Shown here: positions 1,469 to 34,447 of the stretch, piece after piece | How the letters are laid out: each line of letters begins with the position of its first letter | Numbering within the stretch: position 1 is the first letter of the stretch | DNA from: a virus | DNA: 34,447 nt | Strand: one strand, 5' to 3' | Virus record (IMG/VR): IMGVR_UViG_3300030389_001604 | Location: 1-34,447 of that record | Position numbers and translations under genes: made by a program | Notes under the pieces: model-generated | Told to the model about the DNA's origin: nothing | Databases searched by the model: none | The model's input: the letters and a program-made list of their open reading frames with translations, nothing else

Positions 1469-1521
1469 TGTTAAAAAATAACAATTTTTTTATTGACATC
1501 AATTTAGATTAAAACTATTTT
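1469..1521 (+). promoter_or_regulatory. Operator-like palindrome and promoter
   Basis: The palindrome TGTTAAAAAATAACA (1469-1483) lies 9 bp upstream of TTGACA (1493-1498), which is 17 bp from TATTTT (1516-1521). A perfect -35 box and optimal spacing make this one of the best promoters in the window. It should drive the three genes 1559-2769. The palindrome is a variant of the TTGTTAAAATTTAACAA element found elsewhere in the genome. Confidence 0.7.
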
Positions 1522-2992: not shown

Positions 2993-3097
2993 AAGGCTTA
3001 AATTTAGCTTTTAAAGGCGTTTTTTTAGTTTAGGCAATACTTACCAAGGCTAGAAAATAAAACGTTTTTTTAAGGCATTTTTAAAGGTTTTTAAGCC
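2993..3097. repeat. AAGGC motif repeats
   Basis: AAGGC recurs at 2993, 3013, 3046 and 3072, with longer forms TTTTAAAGGC (3009-3018) and TTTTAAGGC (3068-3076), and an inverted TTTTTAAGCC at 3088-3097. TTTTAAGGC also occurs at 1376-1384 in the other non-coding region. Confidence 0.5.
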
Positions 3098-3226
3098 TTA
3101 ATGAGAATAAATCTCATTAAAAATGAATGATTAAAAATCTAGTAAATTCTTATTGAGAATCAGTCTCATTAAGCATTGATGTGGGATCGGTCTAGAAAAA
3201 ACCTTATTGAGAACGAGTCTCAATAA
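3098..3226. repeat. Three phased TGAGA-N5-TCTCA inverted repeats
   Basis: Three 23-bp sites with 9-bp arms around a 5-bp centre: 3098-3120 (TTAATGAGA/TCTCATTAA, centre ATAAA), 3150-3172 (TTATTGAGA/TCTCATTAA, centre ATCAG) and 3204-3226 (TTATTGAGA/TCTCAATAA, centre ACGAG). Start-to-start spacing is 52 and 54 bp, about five helical turns. The pattern suggests cooperative binding of a dimeric DNA-binding protein. The sites also resemble Fur boxes. Confidence 0.8.
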
Positions 3227-3341
3227 CAAAATATGTCAGTAAGAAAAAATAATATAGGAAATATGGCTATAGTAAAACATAATTTATATTTTATAATTAT
3301 ACTTTATAATTTTGCTTTATAATTATAGGGTGTAAAAAAAA

Positions 3342-3393
3342 TGTTAAAATTTAACAAAAAAAAACTTGACTCTAATTTTTATTCGTATAAAAT
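3342..3393 (+). promoter_or_regulatory. Operator-like palindrome and promoter
   Basis: The palindrome TGTTAAAATTTAACA (3342-3356) lies 9 bp upstream of TTGACT (3366-3371), with TAAAAT (3388-3393) 16 bp further on. This is the same arrangement as at 1469-1521 and should drive the gene at 3436. Its -10 box is less certain than its -35 box. Confidence 0.6.
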
Positions 3394-3435: not shown

Positions 3436-4038
3436 ATGTCTAATCAAAATGGAAACCCTATCACAACTACTTTAAAAAAGGTAGATGACTCAGAAGTAAA
3501 GAAATTCTTTACTGAAGGCGTTCAACTTCAAAAGCTAACTAAAAAAATGACTGACTTAATTAAGCGTGATTTTTTTCACAGAGATAAAAAAACCAATACT
3601 ACAAAGTTGACAAAAGAACTGGATAGAATATTGGCAAATAAAGACCCTAGATCGCAAAAAAAGATAGCTAACGTCAAAGCATTTGTTAGAAAGCAATTGC
3701 AAACCCTTATAAAATCTAAACAAACTCAGCAAGTCTTATTAGGTGATTTAGTGACAGTAAGAAAAGTAACAATGAAAAAAGTTACTCAACCAATGATTGA
3801 TGATGTTAACAATGAAAGATTCATAGGTAAATTTGAGCAAAATGATCTAGGTAAGTTCAGAGTAGTCGAGGAGAAAAAAGAAGAGAAAAACAATGATCTT
3901 GATCTTTGGGAAGATTTATTGAAATTAATTGATAAGCATTCAGTAGATACTTCTGTTATAAGAAATACTTGTGATGATCTTGATCAAGGTATATTTTCAT
4001 ATGAACAAAAGGAGAGTAAGCATAGGAAAGTAGCATAG
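3436..4038 (+). CDS. Basic hypothetical protein, possible regulator
   Basis: The 200-residue product is strongly basic in its first two-thirds (many Lys pairs, QLQKLTKKMTDLIKRDFF near residue 30, VKAFVRKQLQTLIKSKQ near residue 85) and has an acidic cluster after residue 145 (EEKKEEKNNDLDLWEDLL). It is predicted helical, with no enzyme motif or membrane segment. A good SD (AAAAGGAG) precedes the ATG. The gene is alone between its own promoter, which carries the palindrome at 3342-3356, and a terminator at 4068-4093. Charge, position and monocistronic layout make an autoregulated DNA-binding regulator plausible, but I recognise no family and no clear HTH. Confidence 0.6.
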   Translation: MSNQNGNPITTTLKKVDDSEVKKFFTEGVQLQKLTKKMTDLIKRDFFHRDKKTNTTKLTKELDRILANKDPRSQKKIANVKAFVRKQLQTLIKSKQTQQVLLGDLVTVRKVTMKKVTQPMIDDVNNERFIGKFEQNDLGKFRVVEEKKEEKNNDLDLWEDLLKLIDKHSVDTSVIRNTCDDLDQGIFSYEQKESKHRKVA

Positions 4039-4067: not shown

Positions 4068-4093
4068 AAGCCGACTCATACAGTCGGCTTTTT
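4068..4093 (+). terminator. Rho-independent terminator
   Basis: A 9-bp perfect stem AAGCCGACT/AGTCGGCTT with loop CATAC is followed by TTT. It ends the transcript of the gene at 3436. The hairpin and its flank are a near-duplicate of 4389-4414. Confidence 0.85.
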
Positions 4094-4123
4094 GGGTGCA
4101 AAAACTAAAAGGAGAAAAAAACA

Positions 4124-4351
4124 ATGATGATATTAAATTATAAATCAAAAAAGCAGTTGAAGGAATCTATTGGACAACCATTAGATTATACTGAGACTTC
4201 ATTTTTTGGCAATGAATATAAACCTGATGGCACTTTTTGTGGTTGTAATAGACCTTACTCACCTGAGTATCCAAAGTTTGAACAAAGGAAAGGTCGTGAA
4301 TTTTTTGCTGAAGTAACCATGAAAAACAACAAAATACATAAGGTAAAATAA
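4124..4351 (+). CDS. Small conserved-looking phage protein
   Basis: A 75-residue product (74 if the second ATG at 4127 is used) with a compact beta-rich look: NYKSKKQLKESIGQPL at the start, SFFGNEYKPDGTFCGCNRP in the middle and EFFAEVTMKNNKIHKVK at the end. The CGC pair might bind metal. SD AAAAGGAG lies upstream. I believe similar short proteins occur in other marine phages, but no function is known to me. The gene stands alone between two duplicated terminators, so it forms an independent cassette. Confidence 0.7.
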   Translation: MMILNYKSKKQLKESIGQPLDYTETSFFGNEYKPDGTFCGCNRPYSPEYPKFEQRKGREFFAEVTMKNNKIHKVK

Positions 4352-4360
4352 AATAATAAA

Positions 4361-4377
4361 TTGTTAAAATTTAACAA
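4361..4377. promoter_or_regulatory. 17-bp palindrome TTGTTAAAATTTAACAA
   Basis: Perfect palindrome around a central A, 9 bp past the stop codon at 4349-4351 and 11 bp before the terminator at 4389. Identical to the copy at 5684-5700 and, on the other strand, to those at 12354 and 22714. Confidence 0.8.
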
Positions 4378-4388
4378 TATCCAATTAC

Positions 4389-4414
4389 AAAGCCGATTCA
4401 TATAATCGGCTTTT
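4389..4414 (+). terminator. Rho-independent terminator, duplicate
   Basis: Stem AAAGCCGATT/AATCGGCTTT with loop CATAT and a short T run. Compared with 4068-4093 one C-G pair has become T-A on both sides, so pairing is kept. The flank after the hairpin (GGGGTGAAAAAACTAAAGGA) also matches that of the first copy. Confidence 0.85.
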
Positions 4415-4440
4415 GGGGTGAAAAAACTAAAGGAAACGCA

Positions 4441-4716
4441 ATGAAAAAAGAAATAAGGGTAATAGATATAGACTGGGTTAATGATGTTAAAGAGTTAACC
4501 CAAAATAATAATCATACTGATGCTAGGTTACTTATAGCAAAATTATTAGATAGCAAGGCTTATATAAAATTTTATTCTGCTATTAAAAGCATTCAAGATT
4601 TTTACGGATATAAGCCATACCATTTAAGTCAACTTTGCAATGATATGGAGAAACCATTTATGAGGTATATTAAAAATAACGTAGAAAACTACGATGATTT
4701 TTATAATGCTTTATAA
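4441..4716 (+). CDS. Hypothetical protein
   Basis: A 91-residue, mainly helical soluble product beginning MKKEIRVIDIDWVNDVKEL, with an aromatic-rich second half (FYGYKPYHLSQLCNDMEKPFM, then YDDFYNAL at the end). The SD is AAAGGAAACGCA directly upstream. It is the first gene after the second duplicated terminator and opens a run of small accessory genes. No family recognised. Confidence 0.65.
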   Translation: MKKEIRVIDIDWVNDVKELTQNNNHTDARLLIAKLLDSKAYIKFYSAIKSIQDFYGYKPYHLSQLCNDMEKPFMRYIKNNVENYDDFYNAL

Positions 4717-5354: not shown

Positions 5355-5713
5355 AACAGTTATATCATTGGGAAATACAAAGTATTATAGATAGCTATGA
5401 TTTAGAATCTATTTATTTTATAACTGACTCGTCTCGGTTGAAAGGTCAATATATAGCAGAAGATGATGCTATTATATTGAACCCTAAACAAACTAAAAAA
5501 GAATTTACTTTATCGTTGCTTCATGAGATATGCCACGCTCTAGATTGTAAAAAACTAGGCGTAACAAAGTATCTCAAGAAATACAATCAAGCAAGTCAAA
5601 TTGCTTTGCATAATGGATTGGATTTTTACAATGATAATAAATGGGAAATACGAGCAGAGAAATTTGCTCACAGAGAATACAAATTGTTAAAATTTAACAA
5701 AAAGGAGAAGTGA
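5351..5713 (+). CDS. HExxH zinc metallopeptidase, ImmA/SprT-like
   Basis: The 120-residue product has a clear zincin motif LLHEICHALD, with HEICH at about residues 58-62, and a downstream WEIRAEKFA segment whose glutamate near residue 102 may be the third zinc ligand. The order of elements (an IILNP strand, HExxH helix, then ExxAE helix) resembles small ImmA/IrrE or SprT-like domains. ImmA proteases cleave phage-type repressors in conjugative elements and prophages; SprT-like domains act on DNA-protein crosslinks. No helix-turn-helix gene, the usual ImmA partner, is adjacent. Translation starts at the ATG overlapping the previous stop. Its last codons are built from the 17-bp palindrome at 5684-5700. 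Catalytic class fairly sure, biological role unknown. Confidence 0.65.
   Translation: MKQLYHWEIQSIIDSYDLESIYFITDSSRLKGQYIAEDDAIILNPKQTKKEFTLSLLHEICHALDCKKLGVTKYLKKYNQASQIALHNGLDFYNDNKWEIRAEKFAHREYKLLKFNKKEK
5684..5700. promoter_or_regulatory. 17-bp palindrome TTGTTAAAATTTAACAA
   Basis: Perfect palindrome lying inside the last codons of the metallopeptidase gene and running straight into the AAAGGAG ribosome binding site of the next gene. Identical to the copy at 4361-4377. Confidence 0.8.
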
Positions 5714-6937: not shown

Positions 6938-7149
6938 GAATGAACAGAGAAAAAAACAGTCCTCAAACGGCAGTTAAGAAGCTATGTGCTAATTATAACT
7001 CAGGTTATATTTGCTCAGGTATTATAATTGACAGTCAATTAAGGCAAAGGGTAGATGGCAACCTTGCAAATAAAGTCTGTCAAATTAAAAGAGGAAAAGA
7101 TTGCAAATATTACGATAAATGCGTAAAGCCATTTGCAATATTAGATTAG
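6931..7149 (+). CDS. Cysteine-containing hypothetical protein
   Basis: A 72-residue basic protein starting at the ATG overlapping the previous gene's stop; a TTG six codons upstream is a less likely start. Cysteines lie near residues 19, 29, 50, 57 and 63, with GKDCKYYDKC near the C terminus, compatible with a metal site. It is the last gene before the structured leader of the replication initiator. Function unknown. Confidence 0.55.
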   Translation: MLRMNREKNSPQTAVKKLCANYNSGYICSGIIIDSQLRQRVDGNLANKVCQIKRGKDCKYYDKCVKPFAILD

Positions 7150-7158
7150 TTAACTAAC

Positions 7159-7212
7159 AGTTGGTGGGGAGTAATGAGGGGCAATAAAGTGGTCTATTGC
7201 TCTCTGCCAACT
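7159..7212 (+). promoter_or_regulatory. Long hairpin / possible RNA switch in initiator leader
   Basis: Bases 7159-7176 pair with 7195-7212 as a continuous 18-bp stem with some G-U pairs (ends AGTTGG and CCAACT) and an 18-base loop. A competing stem pairs 7178-7186 (GGGGCAATA) with 7195-7203 (TATTGCTCT), leaving an 8-base loop. Both use the same 3' strand, so only one can form. The structure ends 6 bases before the AAGGAG of the initiator gene and is not followed by a T tract, so it is not a simple terminator. A perfect palindrome TTAGTTAACTAA (7146-7157) sits just before it. Confidence 0.6.
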
Positions 7213-7230
7213 TATCAAAAGGAGAAATAA

Positions 7231-8025
7231 ATGAGAAGTGGTTATGTTGGATACCTACCTGTGTATATTAGGCATTCTAAAAAACTAAATCCTACCACTA
7301 AATTAGTGTACGCTGAAATTACTGCTTGCCTAGAGGATAGTGGAGTCTGCAAGAAACCAAATGTCTATTTTAGCAAGGCATTACATATTCATAAAACAAC
7401 AGTATCAGAGCAAATTACTAAACTGAGAAAGCTAAATTTTATTAACGTATATATGGAATACGAAAAAGGAACTCAAAAATTTAAAAATAGATATATCACT
7501 CTTACCTACCCCCAAATTCAGGTAGGGGTTGAGGGAGATGTGAACAATACCCATATCTATTTACAGGAAGGGGAGAGCCTCTCTAATACTACTGTAGTGC
7601 CTAAAAATGGTGTATACCCTAACTCAAAACAGGAAACATTATTAGATAATAATATTAACAAACTATATACCAATAGGCATTATAGTAATATCCCCCTAAA
7701 TAAAAAGATAAACAAGAAACAAGAAGATGCCTTAAAAAAGATTGTTTTTTATTTTTATAATGTTCAAGCAGAGAGATTGCCAAATGTTATAGATAGCGAT
7801 TGGAGAAGGGATACTGGAGCTATTAACGATAGTATCAATACATTGTATGATCTCATCAAGAAAGATGGCTTTGAGTATGATGATGTTTTAGATAGTGTTA
7901 AGTGGGCATTGTTTGACAAATTTTGGGCAACTAATTTAGTTAGTCTAAGAGTCTTGAGAGAAAAGTCAAGCAATGGTATTACTAAATTTCAAAATATATA
8001 TAAGGATTGTAAAGGAACAAGATAA
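7231..8025 (+). CDS. Replication initiator-like protein (lambda O/DnaD type)
   Basis: The 264-residue product has an N-terminal winged-helix region (YLPVYIRHSKKLNPTTKLVYAEI at residues 9-31, KTTVSEQITKLRKLNFI around 55-71), as in phage replisome organisers. A low-complexity linker (about residues 100-165) follows, then a C-terminal helical domain ending DSVKWALFDKFWATNLVSLRVLREKSSNGITKFQ, a pattern common in DnaD-like and O-like proteins. The expected role is to bind the origin and load the helicase encoded immediately downstream. The TAATG overlap with the primase-helicase gene supports that partnership. The linker DNA contains small inverted repeats and may carry the origin, as in lambda O. 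SD AAAAGGAG. Confidence 0.7.
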   Translation: MRSGYVGYLPVYIRHSKKLNPTTKLVYAEITACLEDSGVCKKPNVYFSKALHIHKTTVSEQITKLRKLNFINVYMEYEKGTQKFKNRYITLTYPQIQVGVEGDVNNTHIYLQEGESLSNTTVVPKNGVYPNSKQETLLDNNINKLYTNRHYSNIPLNKKINKKQEDALKKIVFYFYNVQAERLPNVIDSDWRRDTGAINDSINTLYDLIKKDGFEYDDVLDSVKWALFDKFWATNLVSLRVLREKSSNGITKFQNIYKDCKGTR

Positions 8026-9704
8026 TGACATTTGAGGAGCATGGCATTTATATTAATGATACATCAGGGCAATGCAAAACATTTTGTCCTAAATGTAGCA
8101 AAACTAGAAAGAAAAGTTCTGATCCTTGTTTATCAGTTAATATTGATGAGGGAGTTTGGAACTGTCATCATTGTGGGTGGAAGGGAACATTGAAAAAAGT
8201 TAAAAATTTAACAAAAGTTGAAATAGTCAGTAAACCCATACCACCCACAACTGAGATTCCTGATAATGTTTATCAATGGTTTGAGGATAGAAACATTAGT
8301 AGAGTAGTTGTGGATAGTGAAAAAATAGGTTACAGCGATAGATGGATTCATTTTCCATTTTACAAAGATGGGGAAGTAGTAAATATAAAATCAAGAACTG
8401 GAGATAAGAAGTTTAAGCAAACTAAGAACGCTGAGAAATGTTTTTATAGGTTTGATAGCATGGTTGGGATGGAAACGATTATTATAACTGAGGGCGAGAT
8501 GGATGCTTTATCTTTGGTTCAATCAGGTTTTACAAATGTTGTCTCTGTTCCTGATGGTGCACCAGCACAAGGAACAAACCCAAGTGATAAGAAGTTCAGT
8601 TACTTGATGTCAGCAGAAGAACACTTAATGAACGCTAATACTGTTATATTATGTACAGATTCTGATGGTGCTGGTAAACATCTAAGGGAAGAATTATCTA
8701 GGCGTATAGGTAGGGAAAAATGCTTCAGAGTTGTATACCCTGATGGATGTAAGGATATGAATGATGTATTGATGCAATACGGAGAAGATAAAGTCCAAGA
8801 AGTAGTAAGTGAGGCTCATCCATATCCTATTGATGGCGTAGTCATGGTGCAAGATGTAGAGGATGATGCTATTGATTTATTATTAAAGCCAGAGGTTAAG
8901 GGTTTATCTACAGGGTGGTCTTGTGTTGATCCTCATTATTTAGTTAGTCCTAGTGAGGTCACAGTTGTTACAGGAGTTCCAAACATGGGTAAATCAGAGT
9001 GGATGGATGCAGTAATGATTAATATGGTTCAATCCTATGGGTGGAAATTTGGTGTATTCTCAGCAGAGAACTTTCCTGTTAAGCATCATTTACTAAAACT
9101 TGTTGGTAAATTTACAGGGCAACCATTTTGGGGGGATGATAAAATGGATGAAGGAACAGCTAGAGCCAGCATGAAGATACTCAATGAACATATTAAATTC
9201 ATAGGCACTCAAGAAGATTCTGTGACTGTTGAGTCTATCATGGAACAAGCAAAAATACTCAACTTTAGATTTGGACTAAATGGGTTGATTATTGATCCGT
9301 GGAATACACTAGAGCATAAATTTGGGGATGGGGAGAATGAGACTTTATATGTATCGAGGGTACTTGCTCAGTTAAGTGCATTTGCCAAGTTAAATGAGTT
9401 GCATATATGGGTTGTAGCTCATCCGAGAAAAATGGAAAATGGAGTAGATCGAAAGCCTGTTGTTCCCACCCCCTATGATATATCAGGATCAGCTAATTGG
9501 TTTAATAAATGCGATAATGCAATTACTGTACATAGACACAGAAATTCAGAGGAAGATTATGCTGGTATCCATGTGCATAAGATTAGGTTTCAATACAAGA
9601 ATGGTAAGCCAAATCAAAATGATCCTGTAAAACTTAAATATGATATTGCAAGAGGAAAATATTATGAGTACATTGAAGAACCTAAAGAAAATTTATTTGG
9701 ATAG
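8025..9704 (+). CDS. Primase-helicase, T7 gp4-like
   Basis: The 559-residue product has the full layout of a bifunctional primase-helicase. A four-cysteine zinc site lies at residues 21, 24, 47 and 50 (CPKC, CHHC). A TOPRIM domain follows, with TEGEMDAL near residue 156 and CTDSDGAG near 212. A RecA-like DnaB-type helicase domain starts near residue 295, with Walker A GVPNMGKS near 316 and the Walker B strand LIIDPWN near 420. It should synthesise primers and unwind DNA at the fork. No phage DNA polymerase is visible, so the host polymerase is presumably used. Start and stop overlap the neighbouring genes, placing it in the core replication operon. Confidence 0.92.
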   Translation: MTFEEHGIYINDTSGQCKTFCPKCSKTRKKSSDPCLSVNIDEGVWNCHHCGWKGTLKKVKNLTKVEIVSKPIPPTTEIPDNVYQWFEDRNISRVVVDSEKIGYSDRWIHFPFYKDGEVVNIKSRTGDKKFKQTKNAEKCFYRFDSMVGMETIIITEGEMDALSLVQSGFTNVVSVPDGAPAQGTNPSDKKFSYLMSAEEHLMNANTVILCTDSDGAGKHLREELSRRIGREKCFRVVYPDGCKDMNDVLMQYGEDKVQEVVSEAHPYPIDGVVMVQDVEDDAIDLLLKPEVKGLSTGWSCVDPHYLVSPSEVTVVTGVPNMGKSEWMDAVMINMVQSYGWKFGVFSAENFPVKHHLLKLVGKFTGQPFWGDDKMDEGTARASMKILNEHIKFIGTQEDSVTVESIMEQAKILNFRFGLNGLIIDPWNTLEHKFGDGENETLYVSRVLAQLSAFAKLNELHIWVVAHPRKMENGVDRKPVVPTPYDISGSANWFNKCDNAITVHRHRNSEEDYAGIHVHKIRFQYKNGKPNQNDPVKLKYDIARGKYYEYIEEPKENLFG

Positions 9705-12353: not shown

Positions 12354-12370
12354 TTGTTAAATTTTAACAA
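12354..12370. promoter_or_regulatory. 17-bp palindrome TTGTTAAATTTTAACAA
   Basis: Reverse complement of the element at 4361 and 5684. It lies immediately upstream of the AGGAG of the first membrane microprotein gene. Confidence 0.8.
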
Positions 12371-17057: not shown

Positions 17058-19323
17058 TTATTTTATTTCCTAATGATGTTGCTTTATTTAGTGCTGGTAT
17101 AAGAGTGTTGTTAACATAGCTATCATCAACTACGCCACCTTGAATTGTAACATTTACAACATTGCTAGTATTTGTTTCTCCGTTGTTTAGCTTTGCTAGG
17201 CTATCTACACCCACTTGATCTACAATTTCTTTTCTAATAATAAATTCACCAGCTTGAGCCATTATAGGTACATTATCTTGACCTTGCACTTGACCCCCTG
17301 TAGCAAATTTTTGTATTCTATCATCTTGAATTAAACCACCAGTATGCCCTACTAAAAATTTTAAAAACCCACCAGTAGCTCCAGCTAACGCAGTAGGTGC
17401 AAAAAATGTACTTAATAATGCATATACACCAGCTTTAGCAATTAACTGAGTAGCTATTGCTTTTAGGCTATTTACAACAGCATCACCCATGTTTTGCCCA
17501 TTTATCATAGCACTTGCCATAGCATCGCTAAGATTTGTCATATTTTGAACAGCAAATTTTTGCTGTGTATCTAGGACACTCATTACATCAACTTGTAAAT
17601 TTGTACTTGATATATTTGCTTCTACTGCTTGAGTTAATAATAACTCTTGTGAATATAAATCTTTAGTTGCTTGCCTTAAGGCTCGCATTTGTTCTAAGGC
17701 TTCTTGATTCCTTTTATTTCTTTGCTCTGCAAGAAATTGTGTGAAATCTCTCATTTGGTTTAAAGCATCTTGATTTCTTTTATTCCTTTCTTCGCTAGAT
17801 GCTTGTGTAAATTCTTTCATTTGATCTAAAGCATCTTGATTCCTTTTATTTCTTTCTTCGCTAGAGCCTTTTGTAAAGGCTCTCATTTCATCTAAGGCTT
17901 CTTGATTTCTTTTAGTTTGTTGTATTGCAAAAAATTTATTTAAATTCTCTCTTATTTTTTGATTTTCTGATTTTTTCTTTTCTTCTTCTTCTATTGCCCT
18001 TATTTGTTCAGCTTGTTTTTTTCTAATTGCTTCTAAACGTTTTTGTTTTTCTACTTCCTGTAAATATGCTTTTTGAGTTCTTCTTAGCTCATTAATAGCA
18101 ACCTGTAAAGCAAGATAATCTTTGCTAAACATCTTTGTTGAGCTTCTTAGCTCTAGCAATTGATCTAATACTGATGCAGAAGTATCAAGTTGAATCCCTA
18201 AACTTTTTGAATACTTTTCTATTGTTTCATCTGCTTTATCTTGAGCTTCTGCGTATTCTAAATTTACAGTCTTAGTATGATTTAGTATTTGTAATAACTG
18301 AGTCATAGTAGAAAAAAGACTTGTTGCATTGCCAGCTATATCATCAAAAACAGGAGCTAAAGTCTTACCTAGTTCAGTAGCAAGATCGGCTGAAGATGCT
18401 GATAATTGATCAAATGTATCCCTAGTATTTAATGTCTCATCTCCAAGCGTTTTTACTTTTTGCCTTGCTGATGCCATCGTTTCATCAAGAAATGCCTGTT
18501 TTTTTTGAACATCAGTTAAAGCATCTACTGTAGTGTTGTTGGCTTGAGCATATCTTTCGTATGCTTCTTCTGCTTTAACGATTATACCAATATTGTCAAG
18601 CATTAACCTAGATTGCCTACCAATACCAGTAATCAATGATTCAACAGAACTAGCAGTATCTCTTCCTAATGCTCTACCTAACCTCTGTGCAATATCAAAC
18701 ATTTCAGCCATCTCATTAGAGTTTTTACTTACCCCAAGAATCATGGCATTATTAGCTTGCCTAAATAAGTCAAAAGAGGACATGGTGTTATCTGTAGCAT
18801 CTCTTAATTTTTGTAAAGTAATAGAAGAATTTTCAGTTGCCCCAGCTAATGTATCAAAAGATGTTGCCATTGATTCAACTCTTGATGCTTCTCCAACCAA
18901 TCTTCCTATTTGCCTTACACCTAAACCCAGAGCAAAATTAACTATTAAAAGTTTTGATCTTAATACAGCAAAAGTTCCACCTAATATTCTAGTTGATACA
19001 TCTGCTTTTTTCTGTTCTTGATTATATTGCTTTAATTTAAGCCTTACTTTTTCTAAATCTACAGCACTTCCTTTTAATGCACTATTCCATAGTTTTGTAG
19101 ATATTCCTATTGCTTTATAATCTAAATTTAAAGCCTCAAGTCTTACTTCAATGTTTTTAAGAGATTGGGCATTTTTTTCAGAATTAGTTTTTTGTAATTT
19201 TCCTTGTTTAACTAATTTTGCCTGAGTGTTAATTAAAGATTTTGTAGCACGATCTAATGTTTTGATTTGATCTAGTAAATCACCTTTGCCAATAAATTCT
19301 ACTTCTACTCTATTTTTTGCCAT
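17050..19323 (-). CDS. Tape measure protein
   Basis: The 757-residue product starts with a helical, lysine-rich region (MAKNRVEVEFIGKGDLLDQI), has long coiled-coil stretches, hydrophobic segments near residues 590-645 (SLKAIATQLIAKAGVYALL, TALAGATGGFLKFLVG), and the C-terminal GHTGGLIQDDRIQKFATGGQ / AQAGEFIIRKEIVDQVG pattern typical of tape measures. It sets tail length and travels inside the tube; at the usual 1.5 Angstrom per residue it predicts a tail of about 110 nm. It follows the frameshifted tail chaperones, the classic order. Four tandem 22-residue repeats lie at residues 471-558. Confidence 0.9.
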   Translation of the reverse strand: MAKNRVEVEFIGKGDLLDQIKTLDRATKSLINTQAKLVKQGKLQKTNSEKNAQSLKNIEVRLEALNLDYKAIGISTKLWNSALKGSAVDLEKVRLKLKQYNQEQKKADVSTRILGGTFAVLRSKLLIVNFALGLGVRQIGRLVGEASRVESMATSFDTLAGATENSSITLQKLRDATDNTMSSFDLFRQANNAMILGVSKNSNEMAEMFDIAQRLGRALGRDTASSVESLITGIGRQSRLMLDNIGIIVKAEEAYERYAQANNTTVDALTDVQKKQAFLDETMASARQKVKTLGDETLNTRDTFDQLSASSADLATELGKTLAPVFDDIAGNATSLFSTMTQLLQILNHTKTVNLEYAEAQDKADETIEKYSKSLGIQLDTSASVLDQLLELRSSTKMFSKDYLALQVAINELRRTQKAYLQEVEKQKRLEAIRKKQAEQIRAIEEEEKKKSENQKIRENLNKFFAIQQTKRNQEALDEMRAFTKGSSEERNKRNQDALDQMKEFTQASSEERNKRNQDALNQMRDFTQFLAEQRNKRNQEALEQMRALRQATKDLYSQELLLTQAVEANISSTNLQVDVMSVLDTQQKFAVQNMTNLSDAMASAMINGQNMGDAVVNSLKAIATQLIAKAGVYALLSTFFAPTALAGATGGFLKFLVGHTGGLIQDDRIQKFATGGQVQGQDNVPIMAQAGEFIIRKEIVDQVGVDSLAKLNNGETNTSNVVNVTIQGGVVDDSYVNNTLIPALNKATSLGNKINA
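17650..17913 (-). repeat. 66-bp tandem repeats in tape measure gene
   Basis: Four in-frame 66-bp units encode residues 471-558. Each unit starts KRNQ(E/D)AL followed by a Met-(R/K) pair, and the first three keep an (E/Q)RN end. The DNA of the inner units is very similar, so they probably arose by recent duplication. Confidence 0.85.
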
Positions 19324-22713: not shown

Positions 22714-22730
22714 TTGTTAAATTTTAACAA
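22714..22730. promoter_or_regulatory. 17-bp palindrome TTGTTAAATTTTAACAA in late operon
   Basis: Perfect copy, the same sequence as at 12354-12370, located 2 bp past the endolysin stop codon and 45 bp upstream of the connector start. It is the only copy in the leftward late region. Confidence 0.8.
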
Positions 22731-22732
22731 TT

Positions 22733-23113
22733 TTAATCTTTTATTTCTACATGAACTAAATCATCAAATGAATTATCTTTTGTGTCTCCATCACTATCCC
22801 AATCTCCGCCAAACCGAATATTAATACCCATTTGTTTTGCTATTCCACGAATCATGCCACCCATGTAATAAAATCCATCTCTATTTTTCCAGTCTATAGG
22901 ATAAGGAGCTAAATCAACTGCTTTTCCTTCCATGTGTTTAGAGTATTTAACTTTAGTAGCACCTTTTGCCAAAAGCTCTTCTTGGCGTTCAGCAGAACGG
23001 AGTCCTTCAATAATAGTTACATCCATCATTTTAATTAATTCATTTAATACATTTACTAACCTAGAGTCCACCCCTCTGAGTCTTTCTCGACTCCGTTTGC
23101 CAAACTTATACAT
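22733..23113 (-). CDS. Endolysin, L-Ala-D-Glu peptidase-like (M15)
   Basis: The 126-residue product is a compact peptidase M15 domain: EGLRSAERQEELLAKGAT near residues 36-53, YSKHMEGKAVDLAPYP with zinc ligands H60 and D67, and C-terminal LVHVE with H121. Such enzymes cut the peptide stems of peptidoglycan and lyse the host. No signal peptide is present, so a holin or similar is needed; small membrane proteins are encoded upstream in the same chain of overlapping genes. The ATG shares a base with the stop of the lysine-rich micropeptide gene. Confidence 0.88.
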   Translation of the reverse strand: MYKFGKRSRERLRGVDSRLVNVLNELIKMMDVTIIEGLRSAERQEELLAKGATKVKYSKHMEGKAVDLAPYPIDWKNRDGFYYMGGMIRGIAKQMGINIRFGGDWDSDGDTKDNSFDDLVHVEIKD

Positions 23114-29164: not shown

Positions 29165-30070
29165 TTAAGCGTTACGGATTTTAAGACCTTTCTTATTATC
29201 TGTATCGTCTATTCTTTTCACACCATAAAGCAAATCTGCGACCACTTTAGTACCTAAAGCATCAATCGAATATTCGCTTTGCACCCTAACATCTTGCTGA
29301 GAAGCAAAAGCTACGGCTGACTTATGAAAGATAGCTCCACTAATTGTATTAGTTCCAGCTCCACCTTCATTTGCTGTATCTACAGTATTTGACATATATA
29401 CGTCAATTCCATAAAGTGATCCAACAAGTCCTGTTCGCAATCCTCTGTTTCCTTCACCAACTGCATCATTTCTAATAAAGTATTGTGCAATACCAGCAGA
29501 AGGATTCAAGATGTCAGCAAATAGTGTTGGATTAACAACCATTGCACACTCTCCATCCATATAAGGAATATCTGCTTCACCTAAAGTTGCAAGAGCTTCT
29601 TCAAATTTACCAGCAGTTAGAGTATCATCATCAGCTAAAAGCAATGAATCTTCTAAACTTTGTAACTCAGTCCATATATCAGCATCTACTTGACGACTAA
29701 GAGCTTCACCCATCATTCTAGCATATTTTTCTACTAAATCTGCTTCTGATTGGATCATTGTCAAATCTTCAAATAACTTTGCGACATATTTGTGTTTATT
29801 AACTGTTAACTGTGTTTCTGTTGTTGCTGTTGCATCATAAGAAACATCTGCTCCAGCATCTTTATCTGATGCACTAATTAAGCTCATTTCTGGAATATGA
29901 AGAACATCTCCATAACCTTTTCCAGCAAAAAGAGCAGAATAATCATCAACTAATCCACGAAATACAGACTTTCTTTCAAAATACTTATATATACCATCTG
30001 CCCAAATTTCAGGAATAAAGTGTTGATCAGTAGTATTGGTTACGGCACTACCTTGATAATGTTTTGACAT
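29165..30070 (-). CDS. Major capsid protein
   Basis: The 301-residue product has the layout of an HK97-fold coat protein: N-terminal FIPEIWADGIYKYFERKSVF, the E-loop region VLHIPEMSLISASDKDA, then ADIWTELQSLEDSLLLADDD, MVVNPTLFADILNP, and the P-domain/C-terminal FHKSAVAFASQQDVRV followed by YGVKRID. It follows the scaffold gene, as usual, and is followed by a hairpin that may boost its relative expression. Confidence 0.88.
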   Translation of the reverse strand: MSKHYQGSAVTNTTDQHFIPEIWADGIYKYFERKSVFRGLVDDYSALFAGKGYGDVLHIPEMSLISASDKDAGADVSYDATATTETQLTVNKHKYVAKLFEDLTMIQSEADLVEKYARMMGEALSRQVDADIWTELQSLEDSLLLADDDTLTAGKFEEALATLGEADIPYMDGECAMVVNPTLFADILNPSAGIAQYFIRNDAVGEGNRGLRTGLVGSLYGIDVYMSNTVDTANEGGAGTNTISGAIFHKSAVAFASQQDVRVQSEYSIDALGTKVVADLLYGVKRIDDTDNKKGLKIRNA

Positions 30071-33854: not shown

Positions 33855-34319
33855 ATGGCAAAGAAACGAGAATTAGATGAACAAGATAGACGATTACTTA
33901 CTGAGATTATTGCTGGAATGTCTTTCGACTCACGAATCTTCGCTGAGAGACTTGGACAAGAAATTAACAGACTTACAAGAAGTGGTGTTGATGAACAATC
34001 AATTATTGGCGTTCTTAGCCAAGACTTTAATACCAATGGAAGGATATTCGGAGAACTCAAAAATGCCATTAAGCGAGGAGTTGTGGGAGGAATTAATCAG
34101 GCTTTCCGTAGAGCTGGAGAAATGGGGAAAAGCCTAAAATGGGTGACAATGTCTAAAAACCCTTGCTCTGATTGTAAAAAAAGAGCTGGTGAAGTAGATA
34201 CTTGGGATAACTGGGAATCTAGGGGTATGCCATCTAGTGGATGGAGTATCTGCAAAGAATATTGTTATTGTCAGTTAATGCCAGCAGATATGGATATTGA
34301 TGATACAATTATTATATGA
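33855..34319 (+). CDS. MuF-like minor head protein
   Basis: The 154-residue product is the complete copy of the gene cut at the left end. The helical N-terminal half (ELDEQDRRLLTEIIAGMSFD) is followed by the C-terminal MuF motif: KWVTMSKNPCSDCKKRAGEV near residue 93, GMPSSGW and CKEYCYCQLMPADMDID. MuF/SPP1 gp7 proteins bind the portal and are packaged or guide DNA ejection. Family members are typically longer (200-400 residues), so this is a short version missing the usual N-terminal extension. ATGA overlap with the zinc-ribbon gene. Confidence 0.75.
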   Translation: MAKKRELDEQDRRLLTEIIAGMSFDSRIFAERLGQEINRLTRSGVDEQSIIGVLSQDFNTNGRIFGELKNAIKRGVVGGINQAFRRAGEMGKSLKWVTMSKNPCSDCKKRAGEVDTWDNWESRGMPSSGWSICKEYCYCQLMPADMDIDDTIII

Positions 34320-34447
34320 AAAAATTCACATTATTAAACTGTTTTTGTTTAAGCTGTCATTGGGTTTGGGAAGTATTAGGAGTTGATGTTGACAGAGAAC
34401 AAGAATGTCCTGAGTGCAAATCTTTTGATGTTAAAACATTTATTAAG
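34126..34447. repeat. Right copy of terminal overlap
   Basis: Matches 1-322 with substitutions at 34193, 34250, 34327 and 34353. The duplicated piece includes only the ends of two genes and no packaging motif that I can see. Confidence 0.95.
34316..34447 (+). CDS. Small zinc-ribbon protein, cut by window end
   Basis: First 44 codons of the gene that is complete at 191-331. Residue 13 is Ser here and Asn in the left copy, the only amino-acid difference in the overlap. Both cysteine pairs are intact. Confidence 0.7.
   Translation, partial: MKKFTLLNCFCLSCHWVWEVLGVDVDREQECPECKSFDVKTFIK

Follow-up and report, generated by a model that had tools for sequence, protein, structure and literature searches.

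The DNA analysed here is a 34,447-nucleotide virus record from IMG/VR (IMGVR_UViG_3300030389_001604), referred to as the window. A 17-bp palindrome (TTGTTAAAATTTAACAA or its complement) is repeated perfectly at 4361, 5684, 12354 and 22714 when both strands are scanned, which raises the question of whether these copies are the dispersed operators of a regulator, and which protein would read them. Positions 1-300 and 34126-34425 are 99% identical over 300 bp and form a terminal repeat of the record; the assembly is therefore circular or terminally redundant. Besides the perfect copies, site 3341 shows one mismatch to the 17-mer and site 1468 shows three, and a one-base-longer form (GTTAAAAATTTAAC) is located inside the primase gene at 8199-8212. 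Scanning of the window with up to three mismatches gave 11 matches against 1.6 expected, and 0/100 dinucleotide shuffles reached 11. The perfect 17-mer, with four copies in the window, appeared zero times across 500 dinucleotide shuffles. The looser dyad GTTAA-N3..5-TTAAC was found 7 times (shuffle mean 0.3 and maximum 3 in 500 dinucleotide shuffles). One of these 7 dyads (GTTAAAGAGTTAAC at 4486) is intragenic and asymmetric, and is probably a chance product.

The positions of the copies and of the associated features are shown in Table 1. The site at 12354 is directly upstream of a ribosome binding site, and the site at 22714 lies 47 nt upstream of the start of the adjoining late gene. The initial annotation had claimed the four perfect copies, a 15-bp core at 3342-3356, a variant at 1469-1483, a longer form in the primase gene, and a chance expectation far below one. 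All of these held in the pattern scan and the shuffles: the core and the variant carry one and three mismatches to the 17-mer, the primase copy is a 14-bp form, and none of the 500 shuffles contained a perfect copy. The claim that perfect copies adjoin gene ends, ribosome binding sites or terminators in both early and late regions also held. Two copies had been described as just upstream of promoters, and this was confirmed for the imperfect ones (3341 and 1469), 9-10 bp 5' of a TTGACA-like -35; the proposed controller's own promoter does carry a copy, the 3341 site. Neither the shuffled sequences, which do not reach the observed counts, nor the relatives, in which the element is present at syntenic places, refuted the claim. 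Other repeats were also noted in the window. Three alike intergenic terminator-like hairpins with common flanks (AAGCC...GGCTTTT) are located at 2796-2837, 4068-4109 and 4390-4431, and a tape-measure-like gene contains four tandem 66-bp repeats (17671-17934).

Table 1. Proposed operator copies and associated features of the window.
Feature	Position	Strand	Remarks
Degenerate copy ATGTTAAAAAATAACAA	1468..1484	.	9 bp upstream of the TTGACA-17-TATTTT promoter-like site
Promoter-like site TTGACA-17-TATTTT, 3' of the 1469 copy	1493..1521	+	
Proposed operator copy ATGTTAAAATTTAACAA	3341..3357	.	One mismatch; 10 bp upstream of the -35 of the promoter of the 200-aa gene
Sigma-70-like promoter TTGACT-16-TAAAAT of the 200-aa gene	3366..3393	+	Layout matched in most relatives
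Gene of the 200-aa protein, proposed to recognise the sites	3436..4038	+	Proposed autoregulated DNA-binding regulator; phyletic match, covariation of residues 85 and 94
Codon of residue 85 (Arg)	3688..3690	+	Predicted to set the outer bases (R = TGTTAA)
Codon of residue 94 (Ser)	3715..3717	+	Predicted to set the inner base
Proposed operator copy, perfect	4361..4377	.	Between the stop codon at 4351 and the terminator-like hairpin at 4390
Proposed operator copy, perfect	5684..5700	.	Directly upstream of the ribosome binding site of the gene at 5713
Proposed operator copy, 14 bp, in the primase-helicase gene	8199..8212	.	174 nt from the gene start
Proposed operator copy, perfect	12354..12370	.	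Small membrane-protein ORF with its start codon 16 nt downstream; slot shared by relatives
Proposed operator copy, perfect	22714..22730	.	Between the endolysin (22733-23113) and the next late gene (start 22668)

TerL and primase searches of IMG/VR gave 80 related loci each, and 47 relative contigs were examined, whole or as available fragments. The exact 17-mer is rare in these relatives; the general dyad GTTAA...TTAAC with 3, 4 or 5 bases between is common. Most relatives with a gene for the 200-aa protein (3436-4038) contain 4-9 copies of the dyad, and most relatives without the gene contain none. With four fragmentary or ambiguous contigs left out, the 27 relatives with a homologue have 136 GTTAA-type sites (9.2 expected), whereas the 17 relatives without have one (4.6 expected). 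Every ORF of 50 aa or longer was assigned to a cluster, and the clusters were compared across genomes whose early region was readable (27 with sites, 13 without); the product of 3436-4038 was the sole ORF family that matched the sites exactly (27/27 vs 0/13). Three genomes (G014-G016) were counted as site-bearing here; their variant GTTAAACATCTAAC escaped the first pattern and was verified after the count. On the TerL tree, the presence of gene and sites switches about five times. For example, G002 lacks both and is placed among carriers; G021, L251 and L253 have both and are placed among non-carriers. Contigs chosen by protein similarity alone bear sites in 13 of 14 cases, a few of these contigs being near-identical to genomes already used. 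The exception (L070) encodes the protein and has no intact site, only a degenerate copy, and its contig ends about 1 kb past the gene.

These results bear on the explanation that an AT-rich genome has produced the palindromes by chance, or that a host protein binds them. The window has a GC content of 33%, and single dyads do arise by chance, for example at 4486. However, the shuffles, the absence of sites from relatives that lack the gene and are equally AT-rich, and the covariation with two residues of a phage protein (see below) speak against this explanation, which is all but excluded. TATATA/ATATAT dyads in relatives without the protein were rejected as sites; they form one local AT repeat and are not dispersed. 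The computational evidence shows that the sites are non-random, syntenic, symmetric as DNA, and confined to genomes with the protein. The phage family is uncultured, with about five to nine palindromic sites of 13-15 bp per complete genome at gene borders. No match was found by protein or DNA in the collections of cultured phages searched, none of which contained the 200-aa protein, and the patterns used revealed no relative of the regulator or of TerL in GTDB bacterial contigs. The literature searched on stoperators and marine dispersed operators contained nothing on this phage group. These phages appear to be largely marine, as judged informally from the contigs and from general background.

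The placement of the sites is conserved as well. Upstream of the regulator operon, 20 of the 22 early-promoter copies end 8-15 bp before a TTG -35-like hexamer, and the remaining two end 16 and 30 bp before it. Many relatives have a site again at about +1.0-1.2 kb from the start of the regulator gene, as with the window copy at 4361. A conserved CATATATAAGG.GTA element, as yet unexplained, was observed a few bases upstream of the operator and the -35 in ten genomes (G005, G007, G008, G019, G025, G026, G046, L258, L264 and L274). Sites 11-25 nt upstream of start codons are also enriched (44/131, 34%, vs 2.7% at random; p=2e-35). This p-value is nominal, because sites common by descent are not independent. 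A site before the start codon of the same gene occurs in 23 genomes. The slot between the endolysin and the next late gene is filled in most genomes with the protein, and no site was found there in the fully readable genomes without it.

The spacing at the early promoters might suggest another role: bound at about -50, the protein would activate early promoters or act on them as a dual regulator, and the other copies would be decoys or secondary promoters. In favour of this, almost every early-operon promoter has its site a fixed 8-15 bp ahead of the -35, the second promoter-like site of the window (1493) shows a similar placement, and it is possible that a site upstream of the -35 activates instead of represses. 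However, a good promoter match downstream on the + strand was found for just 3 of the 143 sites outside the early promoters, and the copies in the primase gene and before ribosome binding sites leave no room for a promoter. This role is considered unlikely.

The copy in the primase gene is kept at a fixed place in the family-bearing relatives, and is spelled in the dialect of each genome. The upstream gene overlaps the primase gene, and therefore no intergenic gap is available. A 13-bp site in this primase frame would read GTT AAA ATT TAA, which is a stop. Four genomes (G000, G021, G028 and G046) have mostly 13-bp sites elsewhere, yet a 14-bp copy in the primase gene. The additional base of the primase copy is attributed to this frame, because a 13-bp copy would stop translation.

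The generalised site is a dyad of two half-sites, W-G/T-TTAA-R, with 1-3 bp between them. The half-site is taken as 7 bp because the dyad symmetry extends to the flanking base and the sixth base. Nearly all half-sites of a genome have one common spelling (identity at variable positions 0.86 vs 0.59 shuffled). Five dialects were found: TGTTAAA (the window), TGTTAAG, AGTTAAA, AGTTAAG and TTTTAAG. An unbiased search for dyads revealed the TTTTAAG dialect, which among 48 genomes occurs only in G013 and G026. The spacing of 1 to 3 bp is mixed even within a single genome; such variation is unusual for a rigid dimer and counts against the operator reading. In some genomes the late-slot copies have a dialect unlike that of the early sites (G006 at 29918 and G013 at 3139, records oriented by primase), which probably reflects recent recombination of the late module.

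The spelling of the sites shifts in concert, and two residues of the 200-aa protein predict it; both are shown computationally. In 21 representatives, residue 85 corresponds one-to-one to the outer bases (R = TGTTAA, K = AGTTAA and G = TTTTAA), with a normalised mutual information of 1.0; the next column reached 0.36, and the maximum of 2000 permutations was 0.50. Residue 94 is the best column for the inner base (A/S = A and E/T = G; p=0.0005 family-wise). Together, the two residues match the dialect completely in all 21. The nearest pair, the window and G001 (86% identical), differ as the rule says: S94 with A, and T94 with mostly G. Ten held-out contigs were scored by the rule, and 9/9 with sites agreed in the commonest half-site; six of these nine have clearly distinct proteins. 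Moreover, Thr90, which is nearly invariant, is replaced by Val in G014-G016 alone, and a G at the fifth base, seen in one half of most of their sites, is likewise confined to these three genomes. A link between the two is possible, and it would rest on a single event.

The residue-dialect permutations ignore relatedness. On a motif-masked regulator tree, residue 85 and the outer bases have 5 changes each, and the class of residue 94 and the inner base likewise. The independent-pairs sign test had just 2 supported pairs, so significance was unreachable. In a partial Mantel test, regulator distance correlated with site distance given primase (r=0.25, p=0.002), and the reverse was not significant. 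The product of 3436-4038 had been guessed to be the controller in the initial annotation, and this guess is supported because the phyletic match is exact and residues 85 and 94 predict the site variant, with no binding data. Its description as basic is right for the window protein (charge +11) but does not extend to every relative (-1 for the G026 homologue), so basicity is not the key feature. The reading as a dispersed operator/stoperator system is also supported; repression or transcription block remains inferred.

It was also considered that the sites are RNA hairpins by ribosome binding sites, with the 200-aa protein as an RNA-binding translational repressor and the spacer variation as variation in loop length. 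About one site in three ends 11-25 nt before a start codon, and such close grouping ahead of ribosome binding sites would be compatible with RNA as the target. A hairpin would tolerate loops of 3-5 nt, and several spacers occur in a single genome. However, the inner bases are complementary in 95% of the 14-bp sites vs 51% expected. A hairpin cannot close a 2-nt loop, yet the inner pair is symmetric in 95%, and therefore duplex DNA is the likely target. Moreover, the promoter copies are upstream of the -35 and so would not be part of the RNA made from there, the copy in the primase gene lies 174 nt into it, and the stems would be short and AU-rich. An RNA target is therefore unlikely. No tRNA, Rfam RNA or other known RNA element was found.

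The AlphaFold2 model of the 200-aa protein has a confident core (residues 10-150, mean pLDDT 93), in which a long helix is followed by three further helices (57-66, 71-93 and 95-107) and then a two-stranded sheet. Helix 71-93 presents residue 85 and the invariant Q89 and K93 along one of its faces, and residue 94 forms a one-residue break ahead of helix 95-107. This predicted layout of residues 85, 89, 93 and 94 is as expected of a DNA-reading element, in the absence of binding data. No known DNA-binding domain was detectable by sequence or fold. The window protein matched no Pfam family at E<=0.01, and 21 family members gave no credible Pfam match; Pfam, PHROGs and NCBIfam gave scattered weak matches only, common to few members. 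The family sequence profile had no match in the PDB at E<=10. Foldseek and VIA-align searches with full-length and core models revealed no credible fold match, and a shared or known fold is not excluded. The sole match in BFVD was an identical unnamed entry (A0A516M4L5).

The closest systems in working principle are those of the Cluster A mycobacteriophages (L5 gp71, Bxb1 and TipsytheTRex), in which an immunity repressor acts on operators and stoperators (PMC9283540, PMC6550527). The L5 sites are 13 bp, asymmetric and oriented with transcription, with more than 20 per genome (PMC9283540). The L5-type repressor is a monomer with an N-terminal HTH and a Stoperator domain (PMC9283540, PMC6550527). 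Its binding stops transcript elongation and confers superinfection immunity, effects that for the present protein could be proposed only by analogy. In both cases a single phage repressor (here proposed) would serve many sites, most of them in short gaps between genes, in early as well as late regions; the motif is genome-specific and correlates with repressor distance, and the repressors are of similar size (183 residues in Cluster A vs 200 here). However, the sites here are about 5-9, palindromic and variable in spacing, with one at a fixed place inside a coding region; the protein has no sequence similarity to any solved repressor, and neither integrase nor ParA was detectable. Membership of Cluster A is not claimed because the symmetry and number of the sites differ and homology has not been shown. 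The lambda CI/Cro operators are palindromic, are bound by dimers near the regulator's own promoter, and have their specificity set by recognition-helix residues. The present system is alike in its palindromic sites by the regulator's own promoter and in its inferred specificity-setting residues; the sites here are dispersed, whereas lambda has only a few operators, grouped at two promoters. HTH_3 (XRE) never scored above the cut-off in 30 genomes.

In the phage-plasmid N15, a few inverted repeats dispersed over the phage genome are bound by SopB. By analogy, the sites might be partition (centromere-like) or genome-architecture sites, and the protein a centromere or nucleoid protein. Low-number dispersed palindromes with a single proposed binding protein (binding being inferred) are common to both systems, and most sites are without a clear promoter. 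However, a ParA-type ATPase (AAA_31) was absent from 30 genomes, with the control positive in 14/14. The sites also follow gene borders, start codons and the regulator's own promoter, none of which is needed for partition. This explanation is thus also unlikely.

The reading that is likely is that the sites are dispersed, stoperator-like operators of a phage-encoded, autoregulated 200-aa DNA-binding protein, with binding deduced from covariation, and with repression or roadblock as a further inference. A dimer of the protein would bind two W-G/T-TTAA-R half-sites across the flexible 1-3 bp gap. The half-site reader would be the C-terminal part of helix 71-93 (residues 85, 89 and 93) together with residue 94; the outer bases would be read by residue 85 and the inner base by residue 94. 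The regulator would be made early, and by binding immediately 5' of the -35 at the promoter of its own operon it would be autoregulated. It would also bind the copies that lie between genes in the early and late units, as well as the one in the first part of the primase gene; at these places it would probably act as a roadblock that damps or silences replication and late genes. Genome-specific dialects would direct this regulation to self, and not to related phages.

Tyrosine and serine integrases (PF00589, PF00239) were absent from 30 records, with positive controls, and these records may be incomplete. Integrase, XRE repressor and ParA were not found in the 30 records, and therefore a lysogeny-like state, lytic timing and co-infection exclusion are all left open; the dialects fit lytic-cycle timing or exclusion of co-infecting relatives as well as a lysogeny-like state. 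A bolder reading is that an undescribed DNA-binding family, with a compact two-residue recognition code, gives non-integrating phages a dispersed operator system that is immunity-like and separates self from non-self; the dialects, of which five or more coexist, would be heteroimmunity groups under co-infection selection. This reading is judged less likely than not. If the operator reading is true, sequence-specific DNA recognition would be assigned to a protein family of abundant uncultured phages that has no name, Pfam, PHROG, NCBIfam or known fold, and the base read by each of two residues could be predicted from the sequence. The findings further suggest that phages without an apparent integrase acquired dispersed operator control and diversified its specificity independently of the mycobacteriophages, in which both are known, and that a regulatory site can persist inside primase coding sequence while its spelling tracks the regulator.

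Two other features of the early region were observed. A gene that looks peptidase-like on inspection, with Cys and His-Asp motifs conserved (G007 7141-7650, G022 1192-1737, and equivalents), is present in 25/27 family-bearing genomes, in most directly downstream of the regulator; it is missing from the window, G001 and all 13 site-lacking genomes. A second palindrome family, TGAGA-N5-TCTCA, forms a tandem cluster at 3097-3235 just upstream of the early operon of the window, and also occurs at 1245 and 1441. It was set aside as part of this system, as it occurs with and without the 200-aa protein. Clusters of 3-6 copies are present in G001, G028, G032 and G033, with fewer copies in others, and they could be origin iterons or a separate operator.
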